Part shown: positions 4,229 through 21,941 of the stretch, piece after piece | Position numbering within the stretch: position 1 is the first letter of the stretch | Layout of the letters: each line of letters starts with the position of its first letter | Source: Cellvibrionaceae bacterium 1162T.S.0a.05 | GTDB lineage: Bacteria > Pseudomonadota > Gammaproteobacteria > Pseudomonadales > Cellvibrionaceae | NCBI GenBank assembly: GCA_000964245.1 | Contig: LANB01000001.1 | Location: 3,785,501 to 3,849,500 of the forward strand | Length of the DNA: 64,000 bases | Reading direction: 5' to 3' | Made by a program: the position numbers and the translations under genes | The notes under the pieces: generated by a model | The model's database searches: none | What the model was told of the DNA's origin: nothing | The model's input: only the letters and a program-made list of their open reading frames with translations

Positions 4229-4243
4229 AGTCTCGTCACTTTT

Positions 4244-4636
4244 TTAGAGCTGATTCAAATCCAGGCTAAGGGTCAATTGGTTTACCTTCCGTGTGTATCG
4301 CATCTGGTAACGAATAATGATGTGAACAGTTGAAAGACTTTCGTTATCTGCAAGTACATTCACGTTTTCCACCAGGACGCGTGTTTCCCATTGTTCTATC
4401 GCCTTTTTAACAACATTGGCAATAAGATTGCGTGTGGTGACATTGTTTGGTTGGTGGATAAAATCCAGCAATCCCGCACCAAATCGGCTTCGGCGAATGC
4501 GCTCTCCGGGGCGTGTCAATAAAATATTACGAATGACTTCGCGTACGCTTTCATCATCGTTTGCATAGTCAAACCGCCCTTCCGGGCTGATACCGCCGAG
4601 AGGCCAACTCATTACTTTTGGTACCGGTACATTCAT
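4244..4636 (-). CDS. GPW/gp25-like baseplate wedge protein
   Basis: A 130-aa protein of the T4 gp25 / P2 gpW lysozyme-like baseplate family. Visible family features are the early WPL segment, DDESVREVIRNILLTRPGER and the FGAGLLDFIHQP stretch; the usual gp25 sequence is TRPGER-RP-FG. In contractile tails this protein starts sheath polymerisation and links the wedge to the first sheath ring. I chose ATG 4636 (MNVPVPK), 5 nt after the stop of the preceding gene, because an earlier in-frame ATG at 4669 would overlap that gene by 28 nt and adds residues not expected in the family. It lies directly upstream of the gpJ-like gene, as expected for a tail-baseplate operon. Confidence 0.9.
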   Translation of the reverse strand: MNVPVPKVMSWPLGGISPEGRFDYANDDESVREVIRNILLTRPGERIRRSRFGAGLLDFIHQPNNVTTRNLIANVVKKAIEQWETRVLVENVNVLADNESLSTVHIIIRYQMRYTRKVNQLTLSLDLNQL

Positions 4637-4641
4637 AGTTG

Positions 4642-6291
4642 TCACTTGATTTTTGGAAAAGGTAAACAAATTTTTATCCAGGGCAGCCAGAAGAAAATGA
4701 TGTTCAAGAGGGAGATCATAATCATTAATAAAATCATGGCGACCAGGGTGATTACCGGCAAACTAAAGGAGCAAATCCATTGAATACCGATACCACTGGG
4801 TTCTTCTTCCGGCAACACATCTTCACTTGCCCCTTTTTTTAAGTTCAGCGCATTCAGCAGATTAAAGGTATCGGGCGGTGTGATCATACCTACACCTTTC
4901 GCCAATCCGGAGCGCAAATCTTTCAAGGACGGCATTTGTATGGCCGAGGGTCGGCTGGCATTGGGATCAAAGGGGCCTGCGACACGAAACAATTCACTAC
5001 GCACATCTTCGCCACCCCAATAAATCCGCTCTTTCCCGTTGTCGTCTTTGGCTCGAACAAAAGGTACGATTTGATACAGATCCTCTTTCTCCTGGCGAAA
5101 CTTTGGAATCGGCATCTCATTGGCAAGTGCTGTTGCATTGCTGAGCACACGGTCATTGAGCAGAGAGCGAAATTCCCGTGCGTCGCTGGGACTAATAAAA
5201 AGTGAATAGGTTAATGCATTACCTTTGCGGTCAGGAAGATTACTGAACGTCACCGAATTGATACTGCCAGCTTTGTCAATTTCTTTTTCCTGTAACGCAA
5301 GCCACTCAATGAGTGGATTCGAGTCATTGTCGAAGTTTGCTTGCAACCAGGACCATAAAGAGTATTTTTGATATTGTTTGTAATACTGCTTACTTTCATC
5401 GCTAAAATTAGTGATTAGCTGCTGCTCGACAGCTGCGCCTGCATGATAGAAATAGACTGTACGTGCGAGTTCTTCGAGCTCTTTATTTTCGTTTATCCCC
5501 TGCTCTCCCAAGTGATAACGATTCAACAATAAGCGTAACAATTCAAAAAACTCTCTGGAGGGTTTGCCATCTTCTACGGGCCTGGCGTAGCGCGTCAACC
5601 AGGCTTTTTTGCCGCTGTCACGGAGTCCATAGGGCCAGGGTAAATGCTTTTTCGCCGCACTTTTAAATTCCTGCAACGAATTGGAATCAAACGGCGAAGC
5701 GCTATCTTTCCTGCGTATATAGGTACCACCGAGTGGAATAAAACCATACAAAATGGTTTTACGTTTTCCATTCTCGTCAACAGCCGCTTGCTTGTGCAAA
5801 GGATGCGTCTTTTCGCCCGTATAGGTCGGCACATTCTCACGCGGATGCAACACGCCATTTCGACACATCCGCCGGTGCACATCAGGATCACGTAAACCTG
5901 TTGCGCTTTCTTCCCAACCGAGTGCTTCATCGTTTTCGAGCATCCAGCTGTATTCCTTACCTGAGTGCCGTTTACGTATCACAAAGCCTGCACTAGTGAT
6001 TTTACTTTCGTCCAGTGCCGGCATCCCCAGGCGGCGACACACGACTTCACAACTAAATAGATAAAAAGTTCGGTGCATAGGGAGACGCAGTACAAGATTT
6101 TTGTCATGGCGACTAAAACGGTCTTCACTCTGCCAGCCAAGTGCATCGTTGGTATCCAGTAAATGGGATTGCAAATCCTGCTGAAAACGGCCGATAAAAT
6201 CAGGAATAAGATAACGATGAAGCTGACCGCCTGTTTTTTTATAGTAGGGTGCTTGTAGTTTTACATCGTGAAAGGGAACAGGCATATTCAT
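4642..6291 (-). CDS. CIS-associated protein of unknown function with C-terminal membrane segment
   Basis: A 549-aa protein whose family I do not recognise. Residues 1-480 are hydrophilic and look globular, with aromatic-rich patches (YSLWSWLQANFDND) and no catalytic motif I can name. Near the C-terminus (about residues 500-540) there is a long hydrophobic stretch, ICSFSLPVITLVAMILLM followed by IMISLLNIIFFWLPW, which reads as one or two transmembrane helices, ending in a short basic tail. The gene lies between spike and gp25, where phage tails have no membrane protein. It could anchor the baseplate to the inner membrane, be a membrane-targeted cargo, or act like the membrane protein CisA reported in Streptomyces CIS clusters; only position supports these ideas. 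Confidence 0.6.
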   Translation of the reverse strand: MNMPVPFHDVKLQAPYYKKTGGQLHRYLIPDFIGRFQQDLQSHLLDTNDALGWQSEDRFSRHDKNLVLRLPMHRTFYLFSCEVVCRRLGMPALDESKITSAGFVIRKRHSGKEYSWMLENDEALGWEESATGLRDPDVHRRMCRNGVLHPRENVPTYTGEKTHPLHKQAAVDENGKRKTILYGFIPLGGTYIRRKDSASPFDSNSLQEFKSAAKKHLPWPYGLRDSGKKAWLTRYARPVEDGKPSREFFELLRLLLNRYHLGEQGINENKELEELARTVYFYHAGAAVEQQLITNFSDESKQYYKQYQKYSLWSWLQANFDNDSNPLIEWLALQEKEIDKAGSINSVTFSNLPDRKGNALTYSLFISPSDAREFRSLLNDRVLSNATALANEMPIPKFRQEKEDLYQIVPFVRAKDDNGKERIYWGGEDVRSELFRVAGPFDPNASRPSAIQMPSLKDLRSGLAKGVGMITPPDTFNLLNALNLKKGASEDVLPEEEPSGIGIQWICSFSLPVITLVAMILLMIMISLLNIIFFWLPWIKICLPFPKIK

Positions 6292-6343
6292 TTAACTTGC
6301 TCCGTTTTCATTTGCCTACCGGCTTTGTATTGCGTCCTGATGG

Positions 6344-6991
6344 TTACCATATGTTGCCCGCTCCCGGTGTGTAGGAAGTGCCGACAACGGCATTGGAGAT
6401 ATCGGTATCAGATTGGATTACCCCGCTAAACTGTGAAATACCTGCATTCGCTTTAATTTGCGCGGCGTTCATTTCAATATTGGTTGCATCGAGTACAATT
6501 TTGCTGCCGCTAAGCTTTACTTCCGAGCTATCCATTTTGATGCTCTGATTAGCACGTTTAATTTCGATTTCGCCACCGTTACTGTCGTTGATTGTGAGGC
6601 TATAACCACTCGGTGTGCGGATTTCTAACTTGGGTCCATCCGCGTCATCAAACTCCATGACGGTTCCAGCAGGTGTTCGTACAACATAGTGATCCTCGTG
6701 CGCATCAGCATCTTCCGGGACGGAATTCTGGCCTGCCCAGATACTTCCCAGAACCAACGCCTGGTCCTGAGTTACAAAGGTCACTACGACAATTTCCTCA
6801 ATACGCGGGATGCAACAAACTCCATAATTTTGTCCGGCAGACGGCACAATCAAGCTTGCCCAAATTTCCAGATCATTGGCATATAAGCGAACTTTTATAC
6901 GGCCGCGGCCTTCACTATCGACGTTGTCAACCACTTGCCCAAGTTGCACGGCGTGGAACTGACCCAAGGTGTGCGATGTTAAAATACTCAT
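6344..6991 (-). CDS. baseplate spike protein, gpV/VgrG-tip-like
   Basis: A 215-aa spike protein. Residues 10-100 form the gpV-type OB-fold (LGQVVDNVDSEGRGRIKVRL, then a GYGV/EEIVVVTF-like pattern and VLGSIWAG). The rest (about 105-200) is short repeating beta-strands (KLEIRTPSGYSLTIND, GGEIEIKRANQSIKMD), typical of a triple-stranded beta-helix needle. In CIS it trimerises on the hub and pierces the target membrane. There is no PAAR domain at the C-terminus, so a separate tip protein would be needed. Its ATG overlaps the hub stop codon by 4 nt. The glycine-rich end (YTPGAGNIW) may be the blunt tip. Confidence 0.88.
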   Translation of the reverse strand: MSILTSHTLGQFHAVQLGQVVDNVDSEGRGRIKVRLYANDLEIWASLIVPSAGQNYGVCCIPRIEEIVVVTFVTQDQALVLGSIWAGQNSVPEDADAHEDHYVVRTPAGTVMEFDDADGPKLEIRTPSGYSLTINDSNGGEIEIKRANQSIKMDSSEVKLSGSKIVLDATNIEMNAAQIKANAGISQFSGVIQSDTDISNAVVGTSYTPGAGNIW

Positions 6992-8034
6992 GCCTGCCCC
7001 ACTGCCCTATTCACCTTAAGTTGCGTTTCATAGCCATTACTGGCGTCAAAGCAATGCGCGCAATGCACAATTTGATAGTTGCCTTCCATTCGTGAAGACA
7101 CACCCGTTAGACAAATTTCACGACCGCTTTTAAGCTCCGGTTCGCCAACACAGGAAATGTCGCCACTAATAAAACGACGCGCGTTGCGATCAAAATGTGC
7201 GCGTGCATATTTTCCGGCTTCATCCTGATCGCGTGGTACAGGTTGCGGAACAATATTGTCTCCAGGCCAACTCAATTCATCTGCAAGGTTTTTTGCAGTC
7301 GTCCCCTCTCCAGGGTTTTCGAGCGCGTCTACTTCTTCCAGCAAATCCTCATTTGTTGAAATATTAAATCCTTTCACCGTCACCTTGAGCGGTTGATGAT
7401 TCAGGTCCGCAATAAGGCGAACTTTTTTGGCGCTATCACGTGCGCTTAATTCAAGGGGCGCGGAATCAGGTTCTTCAGGTTTTGCACGCAGGCTACCGTT
7501 GTCGATACGTAAGGCACAGCCGTGCGCATGTAAGAGGCGTGAAAGAAATGCGAGATTGCTTTCATTCATTTGATAATAAGTGGATACCGCAGAAGACACG
7601 TTAACATCAGGATTTAATCCGACTTCGCCGGCTATTGTGTTAACAATATCGTCAATGGACTGGTCTTCGAATACCCGGCTCTCCCGCTGGCGGGCGAGAA
7701 TATGCATTTTATCCTGAAGTAATAAAATGATTTGTGGTGCGCTATTGCCGTAGCGTTCCTCCACAGCGGTAATATCACCACTGAATATCGGAATATCCTG
7801 ATTTTCTCCCATTAAAAGCTCAATTTTTTTTCCGAAACCGAGGCCTTGAAAACCAAAACCTGATTCAGCCGCTTCACCGGACTGTATCCAATTACTTGCT
7901 GTTAACTCGCCGTGAGCCATGCCCGACAACGGAAGATTAATAACAAATGAACTGAGCGCTTGCCTTAGGTCGTCATTCTCTTCGTCATCAATTTTGATGA
8001 GAGGCTTGATGTCTATAAAAGAATCCTGAGTCAT
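6988..8034 (-). CDS. tail hub protein, phage late control gpD / gp27-like
   Basis: A 348-aa hub protein of the phage late control D family. It forms the trimeric adaptor between the inner tube and the spike. Signs of the family are the beta-barrel N-terminus (ELTASNWIQSGEA, ending GDITAVEERYG), the segment QSIDDIVNTIAGEVGL, and YYQMNESNLAFLSRLLHAHGCALRID, which resembles the conserved gpD/VgrG segment with Gln-x-Asn-Glu-Ser and Phe-Leu-x-Arg-Leu. The C-terminal part has SRMEGNYQIVHCAHCFD. It is followed by the spike with a 4-nt overlap, the usual gpD-gpV pairing. Start ATG 8034 is the first available in frame after the preceding small gene. Confidence 0.88.
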   Translation of the reverse strand: MTQDSFIDIKPLIKIDDEENDDLRQALSSFVINLPLSGMAHGELTASNWIQSGEAAESGFGFQGLGFGKKIELLMGENQDIPIFSGDITAVEERYGNSAPQIILLLQDKMHILARQRESRVFEDQSIDDIVNTIAGEVGLNPDVNVSSAVSTYYQMNESNLAFLSRLLHAHGCALRIDNGSLRAKPEEPDSAPLELSARDSAKKVRLIADLNHQPLKVTVKGFNISTNEDLLEEVDALENPGEGTTAKNLADELSWPGDNIVPQPVPRDQDEAGKYARAHFDRNARRFISGDISCVGEPELKSGREICLTGVSSRMEGNYQIVHCAHCFDASNGYETQLKVNRAVGQA

Positions 8035-8049
8035 ATCCTGATTGCCTTC

Positions 8050-8217
8050 CTAATCAAATTCCAGTCGTTGGCGTCGTTCTTCAATTAAATTTAGGGTTTG
8101 CAGTAATTGGTATTCAGGTTCGGTAACAGGCATACGCTCCTGAATCGGTTTCGATTGCACATCAGCAACAGGAGCTTGTGGGACTTCTGCGGTAACTTCA
8201 TTAATAAATACAGGCAT
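8050..8217 (-). CDS. 55-aa CIS-associated small protein (DUF5908-like)
   Basis: A short open frame from ATG 8217 to TAG 8050 encodes 55 residues beginning MPVFINEVTAEV and ending in a charged helix (YQLLQTLNLIEERRQRLEFD). It fills the gap between the tube-domain protein and the hub, so it sits inside the operon. Short proteins with a MPxxIxE-type start and this location in CIS loci are grouped as DUF5908; I assign that only by resemblance. Its function is unknown. The C-terminal helix with a Leu/Arg pattern could bind the hub or spike during assembly. It is too short for coding statistics, so support comes from position, good start context and absence of another gene here. Confidence 0.6.
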   Translation of the reverse strand: MPVFINEVTAEVPQAPVADVQSKPIQERMPVTEPEYQLLQTLNLIEERRQRLEFD

Positions 8218-8239
8218 CTTTTTTTCCGTCGTTACTCAA

Positions 8240-9517
8240 TTAATCAAATCCGAGACTGGCGTTGGCCGACGCGGAAGCACTCGCATTGAGCCCGCTGCCA
8301 CTGGCTTCACTGGTAAAGCTTGAACTTGCTGTCGCTGACGCAAAACCGGTACTGCTCTGACCTTCACGCAAACTCAAACCACCTGAAGCTAATGCGCCTG
8401 CCTTTAGGCCAGAGCCGGTTTTAAAATCAGCTGAAAATGCGCCGGGTATACTCGTACCAATTGACGCCGAAGCACCAAAATTAAATGCAGGCGGTGTAAC
8501 AGAGACCGAACTCGATAAGCCGCCGCCAAGGCTTGCCCCGGCTGATAAATTTGCACCGATTCCAGCGCCGAGACTTGCTCCTGCGCCAAGCTCCAAACCC
8601 GCTCCAGCACTCAAGCCAGCGCCTGCGCTCAAGCCGGCACTTGCACCTAAACTTACTCCCGCACTCAGGCCTGCGCCTGCACTGAAGCTTGCTCCCAAAC
8701 CCGCACCAAACCCACCAGCGGCACCGATACCAACACCTGCTGATGCTGAAGCTTTAAGACTCGCGGCTGCACTGGCACTGGGAATGGATAAGCCCCCACC
8801 ACCAGGGGAACGTAATGATTCGGTTCCGTTATAGGCACCTACCGCGCGCGAATTGACAGCGCCGTTGTCGTCCTCAGAACCGTCGCCACCTTCACCACCG
8901 CCCTTATCATCTTTATTGCCACTGCCAATTGGATCGCTGCTGCTGTCATAACTTGGTGTTTCACGGTCAGCTGCTTTTGCATCAGAGTTGAGAAATTGGA
9001 AGCGACTTTCACTGAGCTTCAGGGACACCGTTGCTCGTAGTGGAATCCCCTCGGGAGAGAAAAAGTCGAGAGTTTCTTCCATACTCTCCATGATGCCGAC
9101 AAAATTAAATGCGCCCCAGGCGAACAGGCACCGGTTGGGTTTGGCTTTTTTCCCGCTCTTTGCTTTTGCCGTCATAAAGTTTTCGGCAATTTTTTTCACA
9201 AGGAGACGAACGTCCGTGTCCTGTTTGTCCTCGGTGGCGTTCGGATTTTGTTCTGTAGGTGCGGGAACAACGTAGGAGTCTGTGGTATCAAATATAAGTT
9301 CAACAGTTAAACTTGATGAACTCTTATCAATATACTGAGCAGCGCGCTCACTTTGATCGCGTTCATTTTCTTTTAAGGAATTCGACAGAGATACCTGTAA
9401 GGTTGCGGGGTTGAACTGCACCTCAATGGCTGGATCACCCGTTCTCGCTTTTTCCAAATCTTCAGGGCGATCAAGCGGGCCACTGACGCTGAATAATTTT
9501 GCTTTTTCAATAGCCAT
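8240..9517 (-). CDS. CIS tube-domain protein (Afp7/LysM-type position) with Ala/Gly/Ser-rich C-terminal tail
   Basis: A 425-aa protein. Residues 1-175 match the CIS tube N-terminal domain (PF19266 type): DPAIEVQFNPATLQVSLSNS, LTVELIFDTTDSY and RCLFAWGAFNFVGIMESMEE. In Afp/PVC-type systems this protein is fused to LysM and joins the tube to the hub. Here no LysM motif is seen. From about residue 235 to the end the sequence is dominated by Ala, Gly, Ser and Leu in loose repeats such as GAGLSAGAGLSAG and LGASLGAG, preceded by an acidic Gly/Asp linker (residues 195-225). The ATG overlaps the previous stop codon by one base (TGATG). The tail could be a flexible linker, a hydrophobic surface-interaction region or a cargo-holding segment; its job is unknown. 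Confidence 0.82.
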   Translation of the reverse strand: MAIEKAKLFSVSGPLDRPEDLEKARTGDPAIEVQFNPATLQVSLSNSLKENERDQSERAAQYIDKSSSSLTVELIFDTTDSYVVPAPTEQNPNATEDKQDTDVRLLVKKIAENFMTAKAKSGKKAKPNRCLFAWGAFNFVGIMESMEETLDFFSPEGIPLRATVSLKLSESRFQFLNSDAKAADRETPSYDSSSDPIGSGNKDDKGGGEGGDGSEDDNGAVNSRAVGAYNGTESLRSPGGGGLSIPSASAAASLKASASAGVGIGAAGGFGAGLGASFSAGAGLSAGVSLGASAGLSAGAGLSAGAGLELGAGASLGAGIGANLSAGASLGGGLSSSVSVTPPAFNFGASASIGTSIPGAFSADFKTGSGLKAGALASGGLSLREGQSSTGFASATASSSFTSEASGSGLNASASASANASLGFD

Positions 9518-10011
9518 CAGGGACGCTCCATCGTTAGATTTTCGACAACGAGTGTGACCTCTTCCAGCGCAACCTGATTGGCGACGGAGGACAAGTCGGG
9601 ACCTTTAAATCGTGTGGGTAGAACGCCGTTTAACCTCCAGATAAGTAAGGTATCGCGTTCGGGTGGCGGACTATTCTCATCTGCATCAGGGTTTGCCACC
9701 GGTATTTTTGAGTCGAGAACTCGAATTTCACCTTCGAGGCGATAACCGTAATTCGCGCCCTTGGTGGTGGCTTGAAACCAGGCCCACAAGTCATTCACTT
9801 TGGTGACCCCGCGCTTTAATACAATGGGCGAAAATTTTGTGATACCCACACGCTGCACTTCACCATAATTCTGGCCACCCACTTGTATCGCGCGCGGTTC
9901 CATTGTCACTTCCAGGCCCTGCACTTCACTGAACAAGGCTTCGCAAAGCATTTTATTTGAACCGCTTTCATAGAGGTGTACTTTGAAATTAAAGGGTACA
10001 AACTCAGACAT
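9517..10011 (-). CDS. tail tube protein, gp19/Afp1-5 family (second tube paralogue)
   Basis: A 164-aa inner-tube protein. Family signs are an N-terminus FKVHLYESGSNKMLCEALF, SEVQGLEVTMEP, PIVLKRGVTKVNDLWAWFQ (the conserved L-K-R-G-hydrophobic segment of tube proteins) and an ALEEVTLVVENL-like end. Tube proteins stack as hexamers inside the sheath; in Afp/PVC clusters the later copies occupy the hub-proximal end. ATG 10011 gives the expected N-terminus and an 8-nt overlap with the preceding gene; an earlier ATG at 10089 would add 26 unrelated residues inside that gene. The loop near residues 105-125 (Pro/Glu/Asp-rich, DADENSPPPERD) is longer than in the 153-aa tube paralogue. Confidence 0.87.
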   Translation of the reverse strand: MSEFVPFNFKVHLYESGSNKMLCEALFSEVQGLEVTMEPRAIQVGGQNYGEVQRVGITKFSPIVLKRGVTKVNDLWAWFQATTKGANYGYRLEGEIRVLDSKIPVANPDADENSPPPERDTLLIWRLNGVLPTRFKGPDLSSVANQVALEEVTLVVENLTMERP

Positions 10012-11485
10012 TGTTGGCCTCCGAATACCAATTGCCATCACGATTGACCAATGTGAGCTCAATACGATCAATCGGATAAGCCGGGGCAATTTCTATGTCT
10101 ACTGCAATAACACCTTCAGCGGGAAAACTTTGATGGAGTCGGTAAGCTTCCTGTGCAACACGCCCACGCAAGGCGCCCTGTTCATACAAGGCGTTAAAAA
10201 ATTTCTCCAGAAGTAAGCGTGGTCTTGGGTCGCGGTAATCAGTGTCGAAGATTAATTTTTCTCCCAGTTCTCGCAGCTGACGAATCAGAAAACCAATAAA
10301 TCGAACAACTTCACCCGAACGTAAACCATTAAGTTTTTTACCATATTCACCGGGGCTATAGTCATTTTTAAAAATGGCGGGTACTGCGATGCGTTCATCA
10401 TCGAGAAAGACTACGGCATTTTTACGGGTAAGCACGCCCATTCCCGGTGATTCCCGCAACGTGATTCTTTCCACCTGACTGAGTTCAGGGTAAGGCTGGC
10501 CATCTGTTACGAAAGGTTGGTGCGCGATGGAGCGCCATATTCCGCGTGAGCGAGCAGAATTTGCCAGCAATCCTGAAACCAGACCTACAGGACTGTAGAG
10601 TGCAAGCCTTTCGTTTCGAAGATAAGGAAAAAGTATTTGTACCTGGCGCAACAAATGCGCGCCATTCTGCTTGCGAGCTTGTTCCAGCTCAGTGATTGCG
10701 AGTGGATCGACTGCGGGGCTCCCCAGCGTTTCAGACCATGCGAGTGGTAAGGTAAACAGACACTGTATGTCTGGTCGGTGCTTGTGCGTAAATGCGAGAA
10801 TTTTTTTCAACAATTCAATGCAGTTCATCGGTTCAACATTCAGAGGGATTTCATGTGAATGTCGGCGTTCTCGATGTCCATCGTCATAAACCGTTGAACA
10901 GGGGCTGAATTCAGGTTGCGGGTTGAGCAAACGTAAACGTGGAATGTCTTCAAGTTGCGCCGCTATTTGAATTCGTTCGAGATCAGGCATGGCAATCACG
11001 CCGACACGATTCAGTACCAGCACACTTGCAATACCGAGTAAGTTATCCACGTCATAGAGTGGCGTATCAAAATGCGGTAAAAACCCGTTCACATGTGCCT
11101 CTTCAGGCACCTGTACGACCCACAGTTTTTCTCCGCCATTACTGAAAAAATCCTCGACGGCTTGAGGCAACCAGGCTTGTTCACCGGCCAAACGACTTTT
11201 ATAACGCGTCTTTTCCTGCGCTGCGTCCGGGAAGATATCTTCAAATTCTGCGTAAGAGTGTAAAGGGAGTGGCAAGTGATACAAATGAGCCTGTTCTTCA
11301 ATGCGCTGATCCAGGCGAGCGCCAAAACCTAATTCGCGAATTTCCTGCATTGTTTCGGATAAGGCAAGCAAGCGTTCAAAGCGAATGCGCCCTGGACAGT
11401 GACCCAACATGGCCACTTCCAGCTCAATGTCCTTCCTTTGAGCTGGCCGTGGGTTGAGCTTGATACGCGCACCGAGAAACTCCAT
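10004..11485 (-). CDS. divergent tail-sheath-like protein
   Basis: This 493-aa protein is weakly related to tail sheaths. Support: WLPQAVEDFFSNGGEKLWVV (residues 105-125) resembles the sheath segment in which a helix with A-V-x-x-F-F-x-N-G-G precedes a buried strand, and the C-terminus RFIGFLIRQLRELGEKLIFD, LLEKFFNALYEQGALRG resembles the conserved sheath C-terminal domain. It lies between the two tube genes, where Afp/PVC clusters carry second and third sheath genes. The middle is not recognisable. It probably makes a specialised sheath ring near the baseplate or cap, but could be a decayed paralogue with a new role. The start ATG 11485 has a short 17-nt gap from the tube gene. Confidence 0.7.
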   Translation of the reverse strand: MEFLGARIKLNPRPAQRKDIELEVAMLGHCPGRIRFERLLALSETMQEIRELGFGARLDQRIEEQAHLYHLPLPLHSYAEFEDIFPDAAQEKTRYKSRLAGEQAWLPQAVEDFFSNGGEKLWVVQVPEEAHVNGFLPHFDTPLYDVDNLLGIASVLVLNRVGVIAMPDLERIQIAAQLEDIPRLRLLNPQPEFSPCSTVYDDGHRERRHSHEIPLNVEPMNCIELLKKILAFTHKHRPDIQCLFTLPLAWSETLGSPAVDPLAITELEQARKQNGAHLLRQVQILFPYLRNERLALYSPVGLVSGLLANSARSRGIWRSIAHQPFVTDGQPYPELSQVERITLRESPGMGVLTRKNAVVFLDDERIAVPAIFKNDYSPGEYGKKLNGLRSGEVVRFIGFLIRQLRELGEKLIFDTDYRDPRPRLLLEKFFNALYEQGALRGRVAQEAYRLHQSFPAEGVIAVDIEIAPAYPIDRIELTLVNRDGNWYSEANNV

Positions 11486-11502
11486 ACCCTTTAATGACTC
11501 CC

Positions 11503-11964
11503 TTAGCCTTGCGTAATAAATTCAGGGCTTAACGTGATTGATTCGATAGCGACATCCGTTCCACCCTTGGCAGTCAGCGTGGGACCTTCCCACTTAAGCG
11601 GGATCGCATTGGTTAAGGTCCAGGTCACCACAGCCGCTGGGCTGGAGGGATTCTCACTTAGCAAAGTAATTACTACGGTACGCTTCGCATTCACATCGCC
11701 GTTGCGAATTTCTTCAAACCAGTCGTAAATTTTTTGCGAGCCAATCACACCACGTTTAAGTGTGACATCCCCCGCTTTGTGAATTGCCGGTATTTTGGTG
11801 ACGTAGTTGGTTTTCGCATTGCCGTTACGATATTCGGCAAGCGTAATTTCCATTCCCAAGCCGGATACTTCTGAAAAGCCGCCTTCAATACTGCCTTCAG
11901 TTCCGTCACCGATATTGACCATGTAATTAAATACGCTATAAGGTGTTTCGCGTAATTCAGCCAT
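11503..11964 (-). CDS. tail tube protein, gp19/Afp1-like
   Basis: A 153-aa inner tube protein of the phage-tail tube family. It has the family's N-terminal YSVFNYMVNIG and EGGFSEVSGLGMEITLAEYR (the Phe-x-Glu-Val-x-Gly-Leu segment), DVTLKRGVIGSQKIYDWFEE and an AIPLKWEGPTLTA segment near residues 118-130. It is placed right after the sheath gene, the standard sheath-tube pair. It would form the bulk of the inner tube in which effectors are loaded. Spacing to the sheath is 46 nt. Length is typical for the family. Confidence 0.93.
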   Translation of the reverse strand: MAELRETPYSVFNYMVNIGDGTEGSIEGGFSEVSGLGMEITLAEYRNGNAKTNYVTKIPAIHKAGDVTLKRGVIGSQKIYDWFEEIRNGDVNAKRTVVITLLSENPSSPAAVVTWTLTNAIPLKWEGPTLTAKGGTDVAIESITLSPEFITQG

Positions 11965-12010
11965 TATGTTCTTCCTCTATTTAATTCGTTAACTTAGTCG
12001 CGCGCTGTTA

Positions 12011-14218
12011 TCAGGCATCAGCTGTTTTCTGGCCAATGCGGAAGATGACAAACTCAGCGGGTTTCAATGCGGCCACGCCGATTTCGCAAACCAGGCGACC
12101 ATTATCCAGGTCGTTTTGAGTCATGGTGCTGCGGTCGCAACGAACGAAATAGGCATGCTTGGGTGTTGGCCCCAGTAAACGGCCGTTAAACCATTCGTTG
12201 TAAAGAAAATCTTCAACGGTTGATTTCACATTGGCCCACAAGCGTTCGCCATTTGGTTCGAATACCACCCACTGTGTCGATTTTTCGATTGAACGTTCGA
12301 GATAAAGAAAATAACGGCGAACATTGATGTATTTCCATTCAGGGTCGCTGGACAAGGTTCGGCCGCCCCAAACACGATGGCCTCGACCGGGAAAGGAACG
12401 AAGGCAATTGATACCGTCGGGGTTCAGTAATTCCTGTTGGAAACGATTGATATCCTGAGCGAAACGTAATGCACCAATAACCGGTTCATTTGCAGGCGGC
12501 TTATGCACGCCGCGAGTGACATCCGTATTGGCATACACGCCTGCAATAAAGCCCGAAGGCGGCACACTGATACTTGTGCGGGCACCCGTCGGATCAGCCG
12601 TTACAACCCAGGGGTAATAAAGAGCCAGTCTTGAATCGTCAAAATTGGAACGGAAATTTCTGATTTCAGAGAGCGCCATGCCTTCACGCGCATCGACAAT
12701 ACCGACGCGATAACGCATTTTTCGGCAGTGCTTTTGCACTTCCGCAACAATCGCCTGGTGTGCACTTTCATCTGTTGATGCGGCGGGTGTTAGCACTATA
12801 GAAATATCTTCAATATCTTCAAATGCTGCCAGCCCGGTATTACCGTTGACTTCATCGACTTCACCGCCATAGTCAATTGCTGCAGGCGCATCACCGTCCA
12901 CACCACCCGCGAGCGTAATAAGATAGCGCGGACCTTCTACTGAAGTAGGTGGTGGCGATAACGCAGCAGAGTCGAACATCTCATAGAGTGCCGCAATAAT
13001 TTCTGCTCCAGTAACAGGATCATCTAGAACACAAGCCACAGGACTTGTTAAGGCATCCATACGCTTCGCTGGCTCGGACTGCATGACATTTGGCAAACTA
13101 TTATCTGCTTCCGGCGAGGAGGAAATGTTGCCGTAGCTATATATGACTTCGCCATTGGCGCCACCACTGCGCACATCAATATCAAAATTGCGTTGCGCCA
13201 TAATGCCTGCTGCACTTGAAGCATTTGCTGCGAGCGCAGGGAGTGGAATAACAATCGGGGCTGCGATGCCGGCATTCAAGCCACTGCCATCAACAGTAAA
13301 TTCACTGCCTCCGGCATTAAGCGTTCCACGCAGTGTTGTCAGCGTGCCCCAGTGAGTGGCGCCGGTAAAGTTTGACAGGTCAGTCTCAGCGGTAAACTTC
13401 AAGGTCGCAAAGGTTCCATCTGCAAGCGCGCCGCTGGTGGGGTTTTTTGCATGAACCCGCGTATAGTTGACCGTCACGCCAGCTCCGTTAACCAATCCGG
13501 CGACCATTAGAATTCCTTCATCACCGGGGTCACCATCACTGGGTCTAAACTCAGTTCCCGTCATTGCGGTCTCATCAGCCGCACTAATTTCACAGCGATT
13601 ATTGACGATGACAAAATGGTCACCCTCTCGACGCACCAGTGCACGAATATCCATAGGGAAGCGTGCAGGAGGAACCTGACCGGAAATTCCTGTTGTTCGC
13701 ACAGCTGAAGTCAAACCTGTCGCTTCAAGAAAAACGACTTCGCCGTCTTCCGGCGCTGAGGTCATTTCACTTTTCAAAAGGTTTTCACTATCACGCCAAA
13801 TCAGCTCGAGCGTGAGGTTTCCACTTGCACCAGGAAAGCGAGAGTTAAAGGTGACGTCGGTATTGGTGTCGGTGCGTGTTGCGAAACTGGCACTACTGCC
13901 GACGCTTTCAGAATTAGTACTGTTGACTCCAGACACAACGCGCGCAGCAAATAACTTCGTACCACCATTATCAAAAAACGCTTTTGCTGCTATCGCAGTG
14001 TGGTTAAGTACCGCATTCCCACCAATGACCAAATCATTCGCATCACCGTAAATTCTCACGAAATCAGCAAAGCTTGTAAGCAGTTCAGGTCTGCCACGTA
14101 AGGGTCCTGTGCGTGTCGGGCCGACAATTCCGGCAACGCTGGTGCCAACACCTTCGATGGACTTAGACCGATAACTGACTTCTTCAACAAAGACGCCGGG
14201 GGCCAAATACTCAGGCAT
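12011..14218 (-). CDS. tail sheath protein with large central insertion
   Basis: A 735-aa contractile sheath subunit. Start: MPEYLAPGVFVEEV, the canonical sheath N-terminus with the sheath handshake strand; residues 60-95 include AFFDNGGTKLFAARVV. The C-terminal domain (about 480-735) has LRSFPGRGHRVWGGRTLSS, YINVRRYFLYLERSIEKST and the ending GVAALKPAEFVIFRIGQ, which match sheath family hallmarks. Usual CIS sheaths are roughly 350-530 residues, so residues about 100-370 form an extra surface domain. A strong ribosome site (AGGAGAACATC before ATG) supports high expression. Sheath contraction drives the tube and spike through the target envelope. Confidence 0.95.
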   Translation of the reverse strand: MPEYLAPGVFVEEVSYRSKSIEGVGTSVAGIVGPTRTGPLRGRPELLTSFADFVRIYGDANDLVIGGNAVLNHTAIAAKAFFDNGGTKLFAARVVSGVNSTNSESVGSSASFATRTDTNTDVTFNSRFPGASGNLTLELIWRDSENLLKSEMTSAPEDGEVVFLEATGLTSAVRTTGISGQVPPARFPMDIRALVRREGDHFVIVNNRCEISAADETAMTGTEFRPSDGDPGDEGILMVAGLVNGAGVTVNYTRVHAKNPTSGALADGTFATLKFTAETDLSNFTGATHWGTLTTLRGTLNAGGSEFTVDGSGLNAGIAAPIVIPLPALAANASSAAGIMAQRNFDIDVRSGGANGEVIYSYGNISSSPEADNSLPNVMQSEPAKRMDALTSPVACVLDDPVTGAEIIAALYEMFDSAALSPPPTSVEGPRYLITLAGGVDGDAPAAIDYGGEVDEVNGNTGLAAFEDIEDISIVLTPAASTDESAHQAIVAEVQKHCRKMRYRVGIVDAREGMALSEIRNFRSNFDDSRLALYYPWVVTADPTGARTSISVPPSGFIAGVYANTDVTRGVHKPPANEPVIGALRFAQDINRFQQELLNPDGINCLRSFPGRGHRVWGGRTLSSDPEWKYINVRRYFLYLERSIEKSTQWVVFEPNGERLWANVKSTVEDFLYNEWFNGRLLGPTPKHAYFVRCDRSTMTQNDLDNGRLVCEIGVAALKPAEFVIFRIGQKTADA

Positions 14219-14257
14219 GATGTTCTCCTATTCTTAAAACAAAAAATTAATGTCGTA

Positions 14258-15073
14258 TTAACTCGCTTGCGCTGCCAGATACTCTTTACCGTTCGAGTTA
14301 ATACGGCTGTTCATACCCGGTATTACAGCCAGGCTTAGTTCAAGGTTAAAAGTGCTACTGCTTGTTATGGATTCCAATTCAAAATCTGTATAGGTATTTA
14401 AATCAGGTGCATTGGCTATGTCGTTCGTCAGGTTGCCATTAAGGCGCAACACAGCACTGTAGTTCGTCACTGCATCCGGCAAGGGCGGTAAGCGATTCAA
14501 AGCAATGACAAAATCGCCCTTACTGTCTGTTTGAGCACGATAGATTTGCGTAGCCGGACCCGGCAAGGTGACTTCGAGTTCCAGTAGCCCCCAGATAATT
14601 GGTGCCTGGTTAGAGTCAAGTAAAATGCTCCCAAATACGGTGCCGCCACTTTGCCTGGCGGTTCCAAGAGGTGTAGGGTAGATAACAACTGTTTCGCCGT
14701 TGCCAGCACCTAAAGTGAGATTGAAGCGCGCCGGGTTAAACCTTCCTTGCTTATCGTAGACTTCGCCTGTAAAACTGTAGGTAGTTTGCGCCGGTCGTGT
14801 TCGTTGCGCTTCGCTTGCATAACCTTCCACGATATCCAGTTGCGGTTTGCGTAAAATCGCCGTTTTTCCCCGGCTGTTTACCAACTTTGCATCACGAGGT
14901 TTATTTTCTAACTGAAGTACCAGATCAACATTAACTTGTTGCATATCTTCTTCATTTTCTGCCGATGCCGCGTTTAACCAATAAACGACGTCGCTTGCAT
15001 GCAACACATTGGTTTCGTGAACTTGCACGAATGCAGCTTCTGCAAATTCCTTTTCTTTTTCTTCTTCAGCCAT
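14258..15073 (-). CDS. CIS-associated protein of unknown function, beta-rich
   Basis: A 271-aa protein with no family I can name. The first 20 residues are Glu/Lys/Ala rich (MAEEEKEKEFAEAAF). The rest is mostly predicted beta-strand with Thr, Val, Leu and small residues; two segments (about 90-150 and 140-205) look like Ig or carboxypeptidase-regulatory-like sandwiches (TYSFTGEVYDKQGRF, GSILLDSNQAPIIW, YRAQTDSKGDFVIAL). No signal peptide or membrane segment appears. It lies between the cap protein gene and the sheath gene, 13 nt from the former, so it is probably a structural or assembly component of the particle. Its position resembles that of accessory structural genes in CIS clusters; a decoration or cargo-adaptor role is possible but only inferred. 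Confidence 0.55.
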   Translation of the reverse strand: MAEEEKEKEFAEAAFVQVHETNVLHASDVVYWLNAASAENEEDMQQVNVDLVLQLENKPRDAKLVNSRGKTAILRKPQLDIVEGYASEAQRTRPAQTTYSFTGEVYDKQGRFNPARFNLTLGAGNGETVVIYPTPLGTARQSGGTVFGSILLDSNQAPIIWGLLELEVTLPGPATQIYRAQTDSKGDFVIALNRLPPLPDAVTNYSAVLRLNGNLTNDIANAPDLNTYTDFELESITSSSTFNLELSLAVIPGMNSRINSNGKEYLAAQAS

Positions 15074-15085
15074 GGATAAGTGCTC

Positions 15086-15706
15086 TTATTCCGTTCCCGT
15101 TGCCTCAGTACGAGTTGCACGAGCGGTTCCGTGTGGAAAAACGCGGGTAATAACCGGCGGGCCGACAGACTCAACACTTTGTAAACGCAAGCGAATCGTT
15201 TTAACGATATAGGGAACGCTGTTGGTATAGGGCGTATCGAGGGCATCCCAAATTCGCATTAAATCTTCATTACTCATTTCCGCTGGTGTAACGGTAAGAA
15301 TTTCTTTTTCGGTCCAGCTGTCATCATTTTCTGCCATATGAGAGATATCAAGATGACACTCATTGGCGAGCTGAATCATGGCCCATGCCATAATATTGGC
15401 TTCAATCGTCGCGCTGCTTGCTGATGCAATTAAAAGTAGGTGTAAATTAATGGGAAGTTCGCGTGTTTCAGTGGCCGAATTAGCACCTTGAGGTGAAAAA
15501 AATCGTGAGCGTCCATGAGGGTCTATCTCGATACGGTGTAAGTAGATGCCGAGCACATTGCCGCTAAGCGGGTCTCCGATATCAGCACTACCAAGAAGTT
15601 CAACCCGGGCATTCACCGGTCCAGCAGACAGTGCAGCAGGCATTCTGCTGGTAAAAAACTGTTCCAGCGCTAACAACACACCATTAATTGCGGTATAACT
15701 GGCCAT
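15086..15706 (-). CDS. tail terminator/cap protein, Pvc16 N-terminal domain (DUF4255)
   Basis: A 206-aa protein of the Pvc16_N / DUF4255 family. Recognisable parts are AINGVLLALEQFFTSRMPAA, GIYLHRIEIDPHGRS, ELPINLHLLLIA (the L-x-L-H-Y/L-L-L strand) and the late segment WDALDTPYTNSVPYIVKTIRL. In Afp/PVC particles Afp16/Pvc16 caps the distal end of tube and sheath and sets length. The protein here is near the size of the N-terminal domain alone. It sits at the start of the operon. RBS context before ATG 15706 (AAAGGATAAGTC) supports this start. Confidence 0.88.
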   Translation of the reverse strand: MASYTAINGVLLALEQFFTSRMPAALSAGPVNARVELLGSADIGDPLSGNVLGIYLHRIEIDPHGRSRFFSPQGANSATETRELPINLHLLLIASASSATIEANIMAWAMIQLANECHLDISHMAENDDSWTEKEILTVTPAEMSNEDLMRIWDALDTPYTNSVPYIVKTIRLRLQSVESVGPPVITRVFPHGTARATRTEATGTE

Positions 15707-15757
15707 GACTTATCCTTTTTTCAGAGGTTCCCTAACAATGTAAATACAACTTTATTT

Positions 15758-16036
15758 TTACAACCGCTTGTCGCTTTTCGTTCCCTGCCCTTTTGGAGAA
15801 AAATATATTTCCGTGCCATCCGTCAGTGTTTTTGTTTCCAGTTTTCCTTCTTTTTGCAACCAGCAAAGTGCTTGCTTCACAAGCTCTTCCGCTTCGATAT
15901 ATTGTTGTTTGGCTAACCACCACTTGATAACACCCTCAAGCGTATCTGCGGCCCCGCCTTGTTGAACGAGGTATGCATCAATCATCAAGGCAATATTTTT
16001 TATTTGCTCATCAAGCGCAGTGTCTCGTTCGTTCAT
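15758..16036 (-). CDS. small unknown protein, first gene of CIS operon
   Basis: A 92-aa protein with no recognised family. It is mostly helical, with Trp-Trp and Leu repeats (EGVIKWWLAKQQYIEAEELV) then a strand pair around DGTEIYFSPKG, which loosely resembles a small winged-helix shape. The ending is basic. It precedes the cap gene by about 50 nt. The ATG at 16036 is preceded by TAA and no Shine-Dalgarno sequence, and the predicted sigma-54 start site falls almost on this ATG. Translation may be leaderless or begin at an internal Met (codon 18). It could be a regulator, chaperone or minor component; none is supported directly. Confidence 0.55.
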   Translation of the reverse strand: MNERDTALDEQIKNIALMIDAYLVQQGGAADTLEGVIKWWLAKQQYIEAEELVKQALCWLQKEGKLETKTLTDGTEIYFSPKGQGTKSDKRL

Positions 16037-16047
16037 TTATGTTTGGG

Positions 16048-16063
16048 AGCAAAGCCTGTGCCA
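16048..16063 (-). promoter_or_regulatory. candidate sigma-54 (-24/-12) promoter for the CIS operon
   Basis: On the minus strand the sequence reads TTGGCACAGGCTTTGCTC, matching the RpoN consensus TGGCAC-N5-TTGC with the diagnostic GG and GC exactly ten bases apart. It points into the CIS operon and lies directly in front of its first gene. The divergent neighbour is a sigma-54 activator, which makes a chance match unlikely. The transcription start would be about 12 nt downstream of the GC, near 16037. Confidence 0.8.
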
Positions 16064-16124
16064 AGCCGCCACCATCGTGTAAGCCCATGAAATATAAGAA
16101 TATTTATTTTTCTAGCAAGAATGT

Positions 16125-16146
16125 TGCGGGTAAAAAACGACCCGCA
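16125..16146. promoter_or_regulatory. candidate enhancer site 1 (inverted repeat) for the sigma-54 activator
   Basis: A 7-bp perfect inverted repeat, TGCGGGT-N8-ACCCGCA, with an A-rich spacer. Its core is GGG-N10-CCC. The centre is about 86 bp upstream of the -12 element of the CIS promoter, in the usual range for upstream activator sites bound by sigma-54 activators. No T-run follows either arm, which argues against a terminator. Confidence 0.5.
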
Positions 16147-16218
16147 CTTTAAGCGCCATAATTTGCTCTGAGGCTTGTAAACCCTGATGAATGAGAATGC
16201 GTGGCGCCAATAAAAACA

Positions 16219-16234
16219 GGGCTAAAAATGACCC
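16219..16234. promoter_or_regulatory. candidate enhancer site 2, same GGG-N10-CCC core
   Basis: The sequence GGG-CTAAAAATGA-CCC repeats the core of site 1 (GGG-TAAAAAACGA-CCC) with the same ten-base spacer and seven of its ten bases. Its centre is 91 bp from the first site, further upstream of the CIS promoter. Two matching sites in one intergenic region fit cooperative binding of the divergent activator. Confidence 0.4.
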
Positions 16235-16615
16235 GGCGCGAAACCACTCAGCGACACAACAGCACGGCTATAAATACTTTATTTGGGAATTATTACCATT
16301 GATTTTTAAAGGCGATTTGTTAATCTAGCCTGGCGTTTGTGGTAGAAATAAAAGATAAATAAAAGATAAATATTTGACAGTGAAACACGCTGTGAAATAC
16401 AGCTGAATGAAAGACCAAAAATAAAACGGCGATATTAAAATACCACAGATCGAACCAGATATATAAAATGGATTCTGCGCGCTATTTTCTCTCTTGCTAC
16501 AAAACACCTGCAACAGAGAAGTTTTAATAGCAGACTGATATCTGGTCGATTTCAATGCGCGTCCAATGCACAAGGCAAACTAACAGATTAATGGATTTAG
16601 TGAGAGACCTTGACA

Positions 16616-18058
16616 ATGTCTACAATCGATTTGATTAGCTGTTCTTCGAATGTATCAAGAAAAAATGGATATTTTTACCACTCCTACCTGCAATCTTTAA
16701 TTGAAAAATCAAAACCCCATATTGATATCAATTATATTGGTGAGATAAAACACGACGCGTTAACTACCGATCATGCGATATTTTATTTTGATGATCCTGA
16801 CTGCTTTGCTTCTCGCTCAACGGAACAACACATACACAGAATTTGTACGCAACAAGAAAAGCTCCAAAAAATAGCCCTTATTAACTTCGAGCTGCCAAAA
16901 ATACTTCCTTCGGTTGTGTCACGATTTGAAGAAATTATTGAATGTTGCAATCTCTCTCTTGAGCAAGCCCTTGATAAAATTACACACTTCTGTCGAAATG
17001 ATTATTCTGACGACGCACCTTGTCGCCATGTGTTCGAGACATTTTTTCTTTTAAACTTCGTTGGAAAATCTAATGCCTGGCAAAACGTCGTCAAGAAGGT
17101 CGATAAGATTTCGCGGTGTGAGGCTCCGGTACTGATTCAGGGAGAGACTGGAACCGGCAAAGAGGTGATTGCACGTTCGGTCCATTATCTTGGCCCACAA
17201 AACCAACGTGGATTTATCCCTATTAATTGTGCTGCAATTCCTGATAGCCTGTTTGAAAGCGAGCTCTTCGGCCATGAAAAAGGGGCGTTCACCGACGCGC
17301 AACAGCGCCATGAGGGAATTATTGCACTTGCGGAAGGCGGAACGCTGTTTCTCGATGAAGTCGATTCGCTTTCCATGAAGGCCCAGTCGGCCTTGCTGCG
17401 TTTTCTACAAACGGGGGAATATCGTTCGGTTGGCAGTAACAAGATAAAACAAGCCAATGTGCGGATCGTTTCAGCGACCAATGCAAATCTCAGCGATTGT
17501 GTACAGCAAGGCAAATTCCGTGAAGATCTGTACTTCAGGTTAAATGTACTCAAGATACACATCCCTCCCCTTCGTGACCGCCTGGACGATATCGAGGTGA
17601 TCTCCCAGTATCTTCTCGATAAGTTTGAAAAGCAGCACAAGCGTGGGCGCAAAATCATTCACAGCGACTCCATTGCCTGGCTAAAACACCAATCCTGGGA
17701 CGGGAATGTCAGGGAGTTGGAAAATTTTCTGCTACGCGAGTACCTATTAAACGACGGTACGGTTATCAAACTGGCTGCTGCTGCGGAACCCGCAGTTCCA
17801 AACTATAGAACCTCTTTCCTCTCGGAAAATATGGCTGAATTATTCCTGGATAATATCGAAAAAGCGAGTTTTAACGAGGCTAAAAACGACATGATTCATC
17901 GTTTTTCCTGCCAGTATATTTCCAGTTTACTCAAGCTGACATCCGGCAATGTCACTGAAGCGGCTCGCATCGCTGGCAAGGAGCGTCGCGCCTTCGGCAA
18001 ACTCATCAAAAGATACAATATCGACAAGCAGCAGTTTATTCAGGAATGTCTTGATTAG
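16616..18058 (+). CDS. sigma-54-dependent transcriptional activator (AAA+, Fis-type HTH)
   Basis: A 480-aa enhancer-binding protein. Residues about 1-140 form an N-terminal domain that resembles a degenerate response-receiver fold but lacks an obvious phosphoacceptor pattern. The AAA+ domain spans about 150-385: Walker A GETGTGKE (176-183), the sigma-54 contact loop GAFTDA (223-228), Walker B GGTLFLDEVD and arginine-finger region FREDLYFRLNVL. A Fis-type helix-turn-helix is at the C-terminus (GNVTEAARIAGKERRAFGKL). I prefer ATG 16616 with GAGAGA 8 nt upstream over the in-frame TTG at 16610. It is divergent from the CIS operon, whose promoter has a -24/-12 element, so it very likely controls the CIS, as VasH does for some T6SS. 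Its 3' end overlaps the convergent GH127 gene by 23 nt. Confidence 0.93.
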   Translation: MSTIDLISCSSNVSRKNGYFYHSYLQSLIEKSKPHIDINYIGEIKHDALTTDHAIFYFDDPDCFASRSTEQHIHRICTQQEKLQKIALINFELPKILPSVVSRFEEIIECCNLSLEQALDKITHFCRNDYSDDAPCRHVFETFFLLNFVGKSNAWQNVVKKVDKISRCEAPVLIQGETGTGKEVIARSVHYLGPQNQRGFIPINCAAIPDSLFESELFGHEKGAFTDAQQRHEGIIALAEGGTLFLDEVDSLSMKAQSALLRFLQTGEYRSVGSNKIKQANVRIVSATNANLSDCVQQGKFREDLYFRLNVLKIHIPPLRDRLDDIEVISQYLLDKFEKQHKRGRKIIHSDSIAWLKHQSWDGNVRELENFLLREYLLNDGTVIKLAAAAEPAVPNYRTSFLSENMAELFLDNIEKASFNEAKNDMIHRFSCQYISSLLKLTSGNVTEAARIAGKERRAFGKLIKRYNIDKQQFIQECLD

Positions 18059-20411: not shown

Positions 20412-20510
20412 CACCTACTCTACTGAAAAACGCTGTAGTCAATTTTAGTGGGGCCTGGAAAAAACCTTACTCTTTCTGCAAGTACAGGTAGGATATTAAG
20501 CATTACCGAC

Positions 20511-21941
20511 TCAAAAATTTCCAGTAAATTCCACGGTGACAACACTTCGTGACTTTAGCTCAGGAAGTGAGTAATCAGTATCAAGCTGATTGATTGCAAG
20601 CGCTTCGCGGTTTTGTGTTTGCGAAGTGATATAAGCGCGGGCATCTGTAAGGGCATCTGAAATATCGAAGCTTACATTTTGATAAGTCTGATCAGAATGA
20701 TTTAACATCACTATGACAAGCCCGGTTGTACTGGTATAGGCTGTAACCGACACATTCTCCAGAGAGGTTTGCGCGGCAACCCGTGTTGCGCCGGGTCGAA
20801 CAAATTTAGCGTAATGCGAGAAAGCCCAACCGCGTTTTAGGATTTGCTCTCGCATCGTGCCGGTATTTTCATCACCATCACCGATAAAAGAGTAAAAACG
20901 ACGCGCCCACCACCAAATATAGGCGTTCCAGTGTATTTCCATGGATTGGTGCACCGATGCAAGTACGACATCCAGAGTTTCGTTCCAGACAGCGAGATTG
21001 TCGTCTCCCCAAATCGGCGCAACGCGATCATTTTCTCCCAGTAAATCGTCGTCGGCTTCGTGCGTTAACCATTCCGTCATCCAACGCTTTTTATTTTTTT
21101 GCTCAGCCAACGGGTAGGCAACAAAGGTTCCCGAATTTTGGGCGCTATAAAGATGACCACCGACATATTCAAAATTCGCCAGTGCCAAGTCATCATTGAG
21201 GCTTGGGTCAGTGTAGGCGCGATCAAAGCGCAGGGATTCACCCACAAGCAAATCTGCCTGAATAAACTGACCGTGATCACGCACGAAGTTTCTCAACTCC
21301 TCGCCCGTCCAGTCACAGGATTCATACGATGGGTGCCAATCGGGTTCATTTTGAATTGAGACAATGTCAATCGTTACGCCTTGCGATGCCATATAACTGA
21401 CATAGTCGTTGAGATGAGTTGCGTAATCATCATAGTATTCAACCAGCAGCTTGCCACCGTTGATCAGCTCCCTGGTATCTTTCATTTCCGCTGGTGGCGT
21501 CCACGGACTGGCGAGTATTGTGAGCTCCTCGCTATGCGTCCTGGCTTCCAGTAAATTATTTACAGCGCGGGGCCAACCTGCACTGTCCGGGCGAATTATG
21601 GTGCGCAATATACTGAGCCCGAGTTCACCTTCGCCCTGACCGACTAGCAACTGAACTTCTGCACTCGACAAAAAGTTTTCTGTCCACATCGGTAAAGCTG
21701 CACCGAAACCATCAATTGTTTGGTAGCGGGTTTGGGTATCAATACTGACGCTATTGTTGGTGACTGTGCCGCTGGAACTTGCGGCGCTACTTGAGCTCGA
21801 CGAATTGCTGCTCGAAGAACTGCTGCTTGAAGCGGAGCTATTATTTCCGTTGCCGGAACCTCCACCACAGCCGCCAAGCAATACAGCACACACTAGCAAA
21901 GCACAAAGTGGTAGGGAATTCTTGTAAAGAGGCAAAATCAT
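20511..21941 (-). CDS. GH30-family glycosidase (xylanase-like), lipoprotein with poly-Ser linker
   Basis: A 476-aa lipoprotein. The signal ends at LLGGC (Cys25), followed by a Gly/Asn/Ser linker with long serine runs (about residues 35-57), a linker type common in Cellvibrio, Saccharophagus and Teredinibacter enzymes. The catalytic domain has the GH30 pattern: QTIDGFGAALPMWTENFL, ILASPWTPPAEMKD, acid/base Glu199 in SIQNEPDW, nucleophile Glu290 in RWMTEWLTH. The C-terminal beta domain ends the protein; no carbohydrate-binding module is present. Likely substrate is (glucurono/arabino)xylan; the subfamily cannot be fixed by eye. Start ATG 21941 has GGAG 8 nt upstream, better than GTG 21950. Gene lies downstream of two halogenase-like genes and the TonB receptor. 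Confidence 0.88.
   Translation of the reverse strand: MILPLYKNSLPLCALLVCAVLLGGCGGGSGNGNNSSASSSSSSSSNSSSSSSAASSSGTVTNNSVSIDTQTRYQTIDGFGAALPMWTENFLSSAEVQLLVGQGEGELGLSILRTIIRPDSAGWPRAVNNLLEARTHSEELTILASPWTPPAEMKDTRELINGGKLLVEYYDDYATHLNDYVSYMASQGVTIDIVSIQNEPDWHPSYESCDWTGEELRNFVRDHGQFIQADLLVGESLRFDRAYTDPSLNDDLALANFEYVGGHLYSAQNSGTFVAYPLAEQKNKKRWMTEWLTHEADDDLLGENDRVAPIWGDDNLAVWNETLDVVLASVHQSMEIHWNAYIWWWARRFYSFIGDGDENTGTMREQILKRGWAFSHYAKFVRPGATRVAAQTSLENVSVTAYTSTTGLVIVMLNHSDQTYQNVSFDISDALTDARAYITSQTQNREALAINQLDTDYSLPELKSRSVVTVEFTGNF

Follow-up and report, generated by a model that had tools for sequence, protein, structure and literature searches.

Two σ54 activators of T6SS, VasH and Sfa2, are described in the passages available from a review (PMC10482370). 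For eCIS, the accessible text of Geller 2021 (PMC8213781) reports GerE/LuxR-type, BTAD, and RfaH regulators encoded beside the eCIS operons. A 2023 review (PMC10598620) states, in the part available, that regulation and the inducer remain unclear for eCIS loci without conserved regulatory genes. No report of σ54 control of a phage-tail-type contractile injection system (CIS) or eCIS was found among the matches listed in the open-licence literature, as judged from titles and the starts of abstracts. The first-pass annotation had called RpoN-controlled phage-tail-type CIS little described, with T6SS cases known, and the same titles and abstract starts agree with it.

The window is a 64-kb stretch (64,000 nucleotides) of the genome of Cellvibrionaceae bacterium 1162T.S.0a.05. 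It contains a CIS operon, a −24/−12 element ahead of it, and a divergent gene for a σ54 enhancer-binding protein (EBP) (Table 1). From the sequence, we consider it very probable that the element is a functional σ54 promoter of the CIS operon and is worked by the EBP via upstream dyads.

Table 1. Features of the CIS control region and operon (window positions)
Feature	Position	Strand	Basis
CIS genes	2069..15706	−	Pfam/ORF reading; run extends beyond window start to AAA ATPase
wH92, 92-aa winged-helix-like protein, first gene of CIS operon	15758..16036	−	ORF, AlphaFold2, conservation
Predicted transcription start	16037	−	12 nt downstream of C −12 (16049); predicted from geometry
σ54-type −24/−12 element TGGCACAGGCTTTGCT	16048..16063	−	Exact pattern and matrix score
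Upstream dyad 1, CGGGT-N8-ACCCG, centre ~−98	16127..16144		Sole exact GGGT-N8-ACCC in window; conserved
Upstream dyad 2, one mismatch, centre ~−189	16218..16235		Comparison with dyad consensus YGGGT-N8-ACCCR
σ54 EBP	16610..18058	+	GAFTDA loop, Walker A/B, C-terminal HTH, receiver-like N-terminus (low confidence)

The minus strand around the element reads TTGGCACAGGCTTTGCTC, with TGGCACAGGCTTTGCT at 16063-16048. Its GG and GC lie at the standard spacing of σ54-dependent promoters, and the letters confirm the annotated −24/−12 element with proper GG/GC spacing ahead of the CIS genes. The pattern TGGCACN5TTGCW occurs without mismatches only here in the window. With up to 2 mismatches it occurs 35 times versus 43.9 in shuffles, so loose matches are not enriched. 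The element has the top matrix score in the window (18.4 of 19.8; runner-up, 14.0), and this and all other matrix scores depend on a handmade σ54 matrix of consensus frequencies. The genome encodes rpoN, with a single Sigma54_DBD match (E 2e-69). It contains TGGCACN5TTGC 18 times in 4.4 Mb versus 5 times for the reversed pattern, so the element alone is suggestive and is no proof of function.

The annotation had placed a CIS operon behind the element, and sheath, tube, and baseplate genes do follow on the minus strand from 16036 downward. The first half of the CIS genes encodes Pvc16_N, a 271-aa protein, the sheath, a tube, a 493-aa protein, and a second tube. The second half encodes CIS_tube, GPD, base V, a 549-aa protein, gp25, and baseplate J. 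Both tubes are gp19-type, and GPD is the hub. The cluster thus combines genes for sheath, gp19-type tube, CIS_tube, and baseplate with an AAA ATPase gene, the gene set of a phage-tail-type CIS/eCIS. No Pfam match to the T6SS membrane complex was found in the 19 operon proteins scanned, 9 of which had no family at all; the scan covered the run except for a 794-aa gene (−317..2067) and the gap at 8035-8239, which could contain a small gene. The cluster is a CIS, so the EBP is not encoded with T6SS genes as VasH-type activators are; some of its relatives are T6SS linked.

The EBP gene lies on the plus strand, divergent from the CIS genes, as had been annotated. Its first ATG is at codon 3 of the ORF. 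It encodes a Sigma54_activat domain with Walker A GETGTGKE and Walker B GGTLFLDEV, as AAA+ σ54 activators do. The structural model had a mean pLDDT of 79, lower at the N-terminus, which alternates strand and helix and may, with low confidence, be receiver-like. The best fold matches were NtrC-type activators and FleQ, with VpsR lower, and FleQ-FleN structures were among the matches. No GAF domain was found in the EBP by Pfam. Control by c-di-GMP, by analogy with FleQ and VpsR, was dropped for want of support. The motif LFRS, which we take to be that of FleQ, was looked for by eye at the matching place in the EBP and was absent. In eight relatives, Walker A is preceded by less than 60 residues, so the N-terminal domain looks dispensable. 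Adjoining the activator, 18036-28334 contains genes for a GH127-type arabinofuranosidase, a tandem pair of tryptophan-halogenase-family proteins, and a large protein that resembles, by eye, a TonB-dependent receptor.

The first gene of the operon encodes wH92. Its AlphaFold2 model (mean pLDDT 79) has the order helix-helix-helix-strand-strand. Sequence and fold matches were weak (no Foldseek E ≤ 0.001) and included many DNA-binding winged helices as well as unrelated proteins. No match to wH92 was found on plasmids.

We sought wH92 in 145 genomes, including the window's own (set A). It was present in 14 genomes at 15 places counting the window's, and reading of the 20-kb stretches gave one more in G077. 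At 12 of the 15 non-window loci, an EBP was encoded in the same 20-kb stretch. In G002 it was on another contig, and in G046 it was ~28 kb off. The remaining locus, G001, had a marginal wH92 match (E 4.5e-4), unrelated genes after wH92, and no EBP in the stretch; its genome match to the EBP was at generic level only. An element with a matrix score of ≥12 precedes wH92 at 14 of the 15 loci, the exception being G001. In one of these elements (G083a, locus L056), TGAA replaces TTGC.

CIS genes follow wH92 at seven set A loci (G057, G063, G082, G078, G086, G046, and G077). T6SS genes follow it at six, five by Pfam (G007, G083a, G105, G051, and G126) and one by resemblance (G002). We thus find, by sequence, a conserved control module common to CIS and T6SS. 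All five T6SS clusters identified by Pfam (L055, L056, L059, L063, and L064) have VipA and VipB (TssB and TssC) domains fused in one ORF, and ORFs in L186 and L188 resemble this fusion. The second G083 locus, G083b (L057 1847-5414), combines an EBP, two exact dyads, an element, and wH92; neither CIS nor T6SS genes could be recognised along its 20 kb. The gene after wH92 there is chalcone-isomerase-like with a TonB C-terminus. This module is perhaps a remnant.

The predicted transcription start lies one base ahead of the wH92 ATG (16036-16034). A stop codon immediately precedes the ATG, so there is no earlier in-frame start. The CIS transcript may be leaderless, translation may begin further in, or the real start may be elsewhere. 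In most relatives, the wH92 start is ~30-100 nt from the −12 base; in G046 it is 14 nt. So short a predicted 5' leader in the window is unusual for a structural operon that is strongly expressed, and it would suit a promoter that is real and serves mainly wH92, with the CIS genes made without σ54 from further promoters. The module at G083b, with no CIS recognised in its 20-kb stretch, would also suit it. We consider this reading unlikely. The intergenic gaps in the CIS run are mostly tens of bases, with one of 205, 1-18200 shows no excess of terminator-like sites (18 versus 24.7), and the module stands ahead of CIS or T6SS genes at 13 of the 15 non-window set A loci.

CIS loci were also collected by the sheath (set B). 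A sheath-alignment search of genome contigs gave at least 518 matches, and the best 80 comprised 76 distinct named loci. These were picked by sheath and not by module, which removes bias towards the module. wH92 was present in 15 of the 76 loci from the best 80 of 518. We take these 15 to be from Gamma-, Beta-, and Alphaproteobacteria and one Kryptoniota bin. Co-occurrence was counted where the sequence extends 4.5 kb or more upstream of the sheath, which left 57 loci, with the EBP defined as a BLAST match of ≥100 bits to the window's. Among these 57 of the best 80 of 518, 13 had both EBP and wH92, 44 had neither, and none had one alone (Fisher p 4e-13, relatedness uncorrected). The remaining 19 include L078, with both genes, L093, where wH92 lies at a contig edge, and L145, whose EBP is generic by tree.

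We read wH92 as part of the switch, since its occurrence tracks that of the EBP rather than the type of machine. Its first position in both CIS and T6SS clusters could instead mark a component of the contractile machines themselves, structural or for assembly. That wH92 is such a part and not a regulator is improbable, since 44 of the 57 close CIS relatives (best 80 of 518) lack a recognised wH92 and are the same ones that lack the EBP. Its predicted fold, a winged helix, and the many DNA-binding winged helices among its weak matches also argue for a regulator.

The element was kept in set B as well. Among the 15 loci that have wH92 (best 80 of 518), 12 have an element of ≥12 ahead of it. Two others scored below threshold (L078, 10.7; L102, 9.1), and L093 has almost no upstream sequence. 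The L148 element begins CGG. In CIS loci without wH92 (best 80 of 518), an element of ≥12 preceded Pvc16 in 1 of 48, in control regions that sit before Pvc16, possibly not the first gene there. The difference gave a Fisher p of 2e-9 (relatedness uncorrected). The one site, in L106, is good but has neither wH92 nor EBP beside it. The background in 470-nt windows of all 76 loci (best 80 of 518) was 2.1% of 5,732. The annotation had proposed a search of relatives for the −24/−12 element, and the site was found before wH92 in 14 of 15 set A and 12 of 15 set B loci. The plain pattern TGG-N9-TGC was set aside as too loose a test (26/31 versus 13% of control windows; 2/47 loci without wH92). On a sheath tree built by a quick method, the module label requires 9 changes, 5 of them forced by supported branches. 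We rejected these changes as a count of transfers; several "no" rows are short contigs, where absence is uncertain.

A wider sample of 398 genomes across the phylum (set C) gave wH92 matches in 5, the window's own among them and one marginal (G555, E 5.8e-4). The three strong new matches were read. G392 and G580 encode EBPs with GAFTDA and, by resemblance, T6SS genes. In G529, the neighbouring genes look CIS-like by eye, and the EBP is encoded on a different contig.

The EBP tree contained 42 EBPs, including as generic controls the 11 usable proteins from 14 loci tried. Thirty EBPs, those of the module plus G116 and G032, split from the 11 generic EBPs and L145 with support of 100/98. All six T6SS-linked EBPs group together (99/97), and next to this subclade are CIS-linked lines whose branching order the tree does not fix. 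Long branches were seen for L145, L148, and G046. L145 was rejected as a module-like EBP; the tree groups it with generic EBPs, and its locus, set aside by hand, is outside the 57.

The annotation had called both the Walker motifs and the loop intact. The Walker motifs are, but the loop reads GAFTDA and the canonical form is GAFTGA. Among the 28 wH92-associated EBPs read, 27 have G[AS][FY]TDA and one (G082) has GAFTGA. The G116 and G032 EBPs have GAFTGA, and the 11 generic controls have GAFTGA or GSFTGA. In the accessible part of a NorR study (PMC2941729), the G266D variant, whose loop is GAFTDA, is freed from its sensor domain yet can open a σ54 promoter, and its ATPase activity requires enhancer DNA. 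GAFTDA and GAYTDA are counted among variants expected to be functional in the part available of a Desulfovibrio study (PMC4641369). Single changes in the GAFTGA motif are said to be mostly harmful in the passage available from PMC3162934, and σ54 was not pulled down with VfmH, which has GAFTDA, according to the available part of PMC10714721. The loop equals that of the constitutive NorR mutant, so dependence on conditions might come from expression of the EBP or from wH92. It is plausible that the CIS particle is conditionally produced, as had been suggested.

The upstream dyad was defined by counting short dyads in the 300 nt upstream of 29 elements. This yielded GGGT-N8-ACCC at 14 of 29 promoters; no 4-base dyad exceeded 4 in ten simple base-shuffle sets. 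The exact form occurred in 5 of 1,798 control windows. With up to 1 mismatch, it occurred at 18 of 29 module promoters versus 147 of 1,798 control windows. YGGGT-N8-ACCCR was found in none of 47 CIS loci without wH92 (from the best 80 of 518 sheath matches). Seven promoters, including the window's, have two copies, one at about −98 to −112 and the other at about −177 to −204; some of these copies have one mismatch. Spacing differs elsewhere (−120/−140 in L075; −88/−309 in L085).

The exact dyad is absent from 15 of 29 module promoters, including four of the six set A T6SS-linked loci and five betaproteobacterial ERSRF loci. The other two T6SS-linked loci (L059 and L064) have it. Its absence partly tracks the HTH: five loci have ERSRF in the recognition region, and none has an exact dyad. 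For the ERSRF loci, GGCG-N4-CGCC came up as a candidate dyad of their own (5/5); it is G+C-rich, may be chance, and is not claimed. L056 has, by eye, three TGAGG-N8-CCTCA-like dyads upstream of its element, one imperfect, with the geometry of the main dyad and other bases.

Loci outside the dyad definition were also read. Two of the three set C loci (G392 and G529) contain both element and exact dyad. G580 (L188) has neither within 700 nt. Of two clade EBPs encoded next to other genes, that of G032 has both dyad and element, and that of G116 has no exact dyad. At G032 (L073 11797-19677), the clade EBP, exact dyad, and −24/−12 element lie ahead of a subtilase-led operon, a possible third cargo of the module. 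The proteins scanned after the subtilase had no Pfam, PADLOC, or NCBIfam match.

In the window's genome, dyad plus element 45-75 nt apart occurs at one place, this promoter, and the reversed control occurs at none. The dyad alone is not enriched there (17 versus 24 reversed). Of 392 related genomes, 259 match the loose dyad-plus-element pattern, and the reversed control also matches many times, so the pattern is not diagnostic in other genomes. We infer that the conserved dyads, at enhancer distance, are upstream sites for the cognate EBP. The single genome match fits the "dedicated" activator of the annotation.

Four lines support the annotated σ54 control by the divergent activator: element conservation, EBP-wH92 co-occurrence, the dyads, and the unique dyad plus element. 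They are partly interdependent, and the EBP clade stands beside them. That the −24/−12 match is chance, with a σ70-type promoter further upstream driving the CIS and the EBP regulating something else, is very improbable: the 18 core-pattern matches in the genome show that exact matches arise, and the minus strand has a σ70-like match (9 of 12) at each of 16118-16091 and 16396-16369, but σ70-like matches in 1-18200 are rarer than in shuffles (16 versus 22.6), and a conserved element, dyads, and partner genes are unexpected by chance. The first-pass annotation was right about the element, the CIS, and the activator. It overlooked wH92 as first gene, the dyads, the sharing with T6SS, and the missing 5' leader.

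For the σ54 promoter, we propose the following mechanism. The EBP would bind the dyads near −98 and −189. EBPs oligomerise, and this one would do so and then use its GAFTDA loop to touch RNAP-σ54 poised at −24/−12. ATP use by the EBP would open the promoter. Transcription would run from wH92 into the sheath, tube, baseplate, and AAA ATPase genes. More speculatively, the EBP may be intrinsically active, with control via its own expression or via wH92 as a feedback partner. On the same speculative footing, wH92 may belong to the switch and not to the particle.

A broader reading is tentative, and we hold it somewhat less likely than its opposite. The GAFTDA EBP, wH92, paired dyads, and element would form a portable cassette that is gained, lost, and exchanged between CIS and T6SS, and perhaps the subtilase-led operon. 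The EBP would be natively "escaped", wH92 would be its dedicated trans-acting brake or co-factor, and the EBP sensor domain would be dispensable.

For one subset of eCIS, the locus offers a testable answer, namely, σ54 with a named activator and named candidate binding sites. That CIS and T6SS share this switch suggests that control modules can pass from one kind of contractile machine to another. The strictness of the GAFTGA rule could be probed with a clade in which GAFTDA is the usual loop.

The EBP shares with the matched FleQ and VpsR structures an N-terminal domain and an AAA+ domain. It differs in that its sequence and model give no sign of c-di-GMP binding. The activity of an EBP can be set by a partner protein, as in PspF/PspA and FleQ/FleN. 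wH92 would be such a partner but is, unlike those, winged-helix-like. As in NorR G266D, the second glycine of GAFTGA is replaced to give GAFTDA, and σ54 promoters are still activated by that mutant (PMC2941729, in the part available). That protein is a laboratory mutant escaping its GAF domain, whereas GAFTDA is native here in nearly all members read. The eCIS regulators of Geller 2021 differ in not being described as σ54 dependent; "sigma" occurs 0 times in the main text as accessed (PMC8213781). VasH and Sfa2 are parallels in role. The window's machine is a phage-tail-type CIS, and no wH92-like partner appears in the review passages available (PMC10482370). As with VasH and Sfa2, the EBP is encoded with an injection machine and would act with RpoN on its genes, and related modules of this EBP clade head T6SS clusters.
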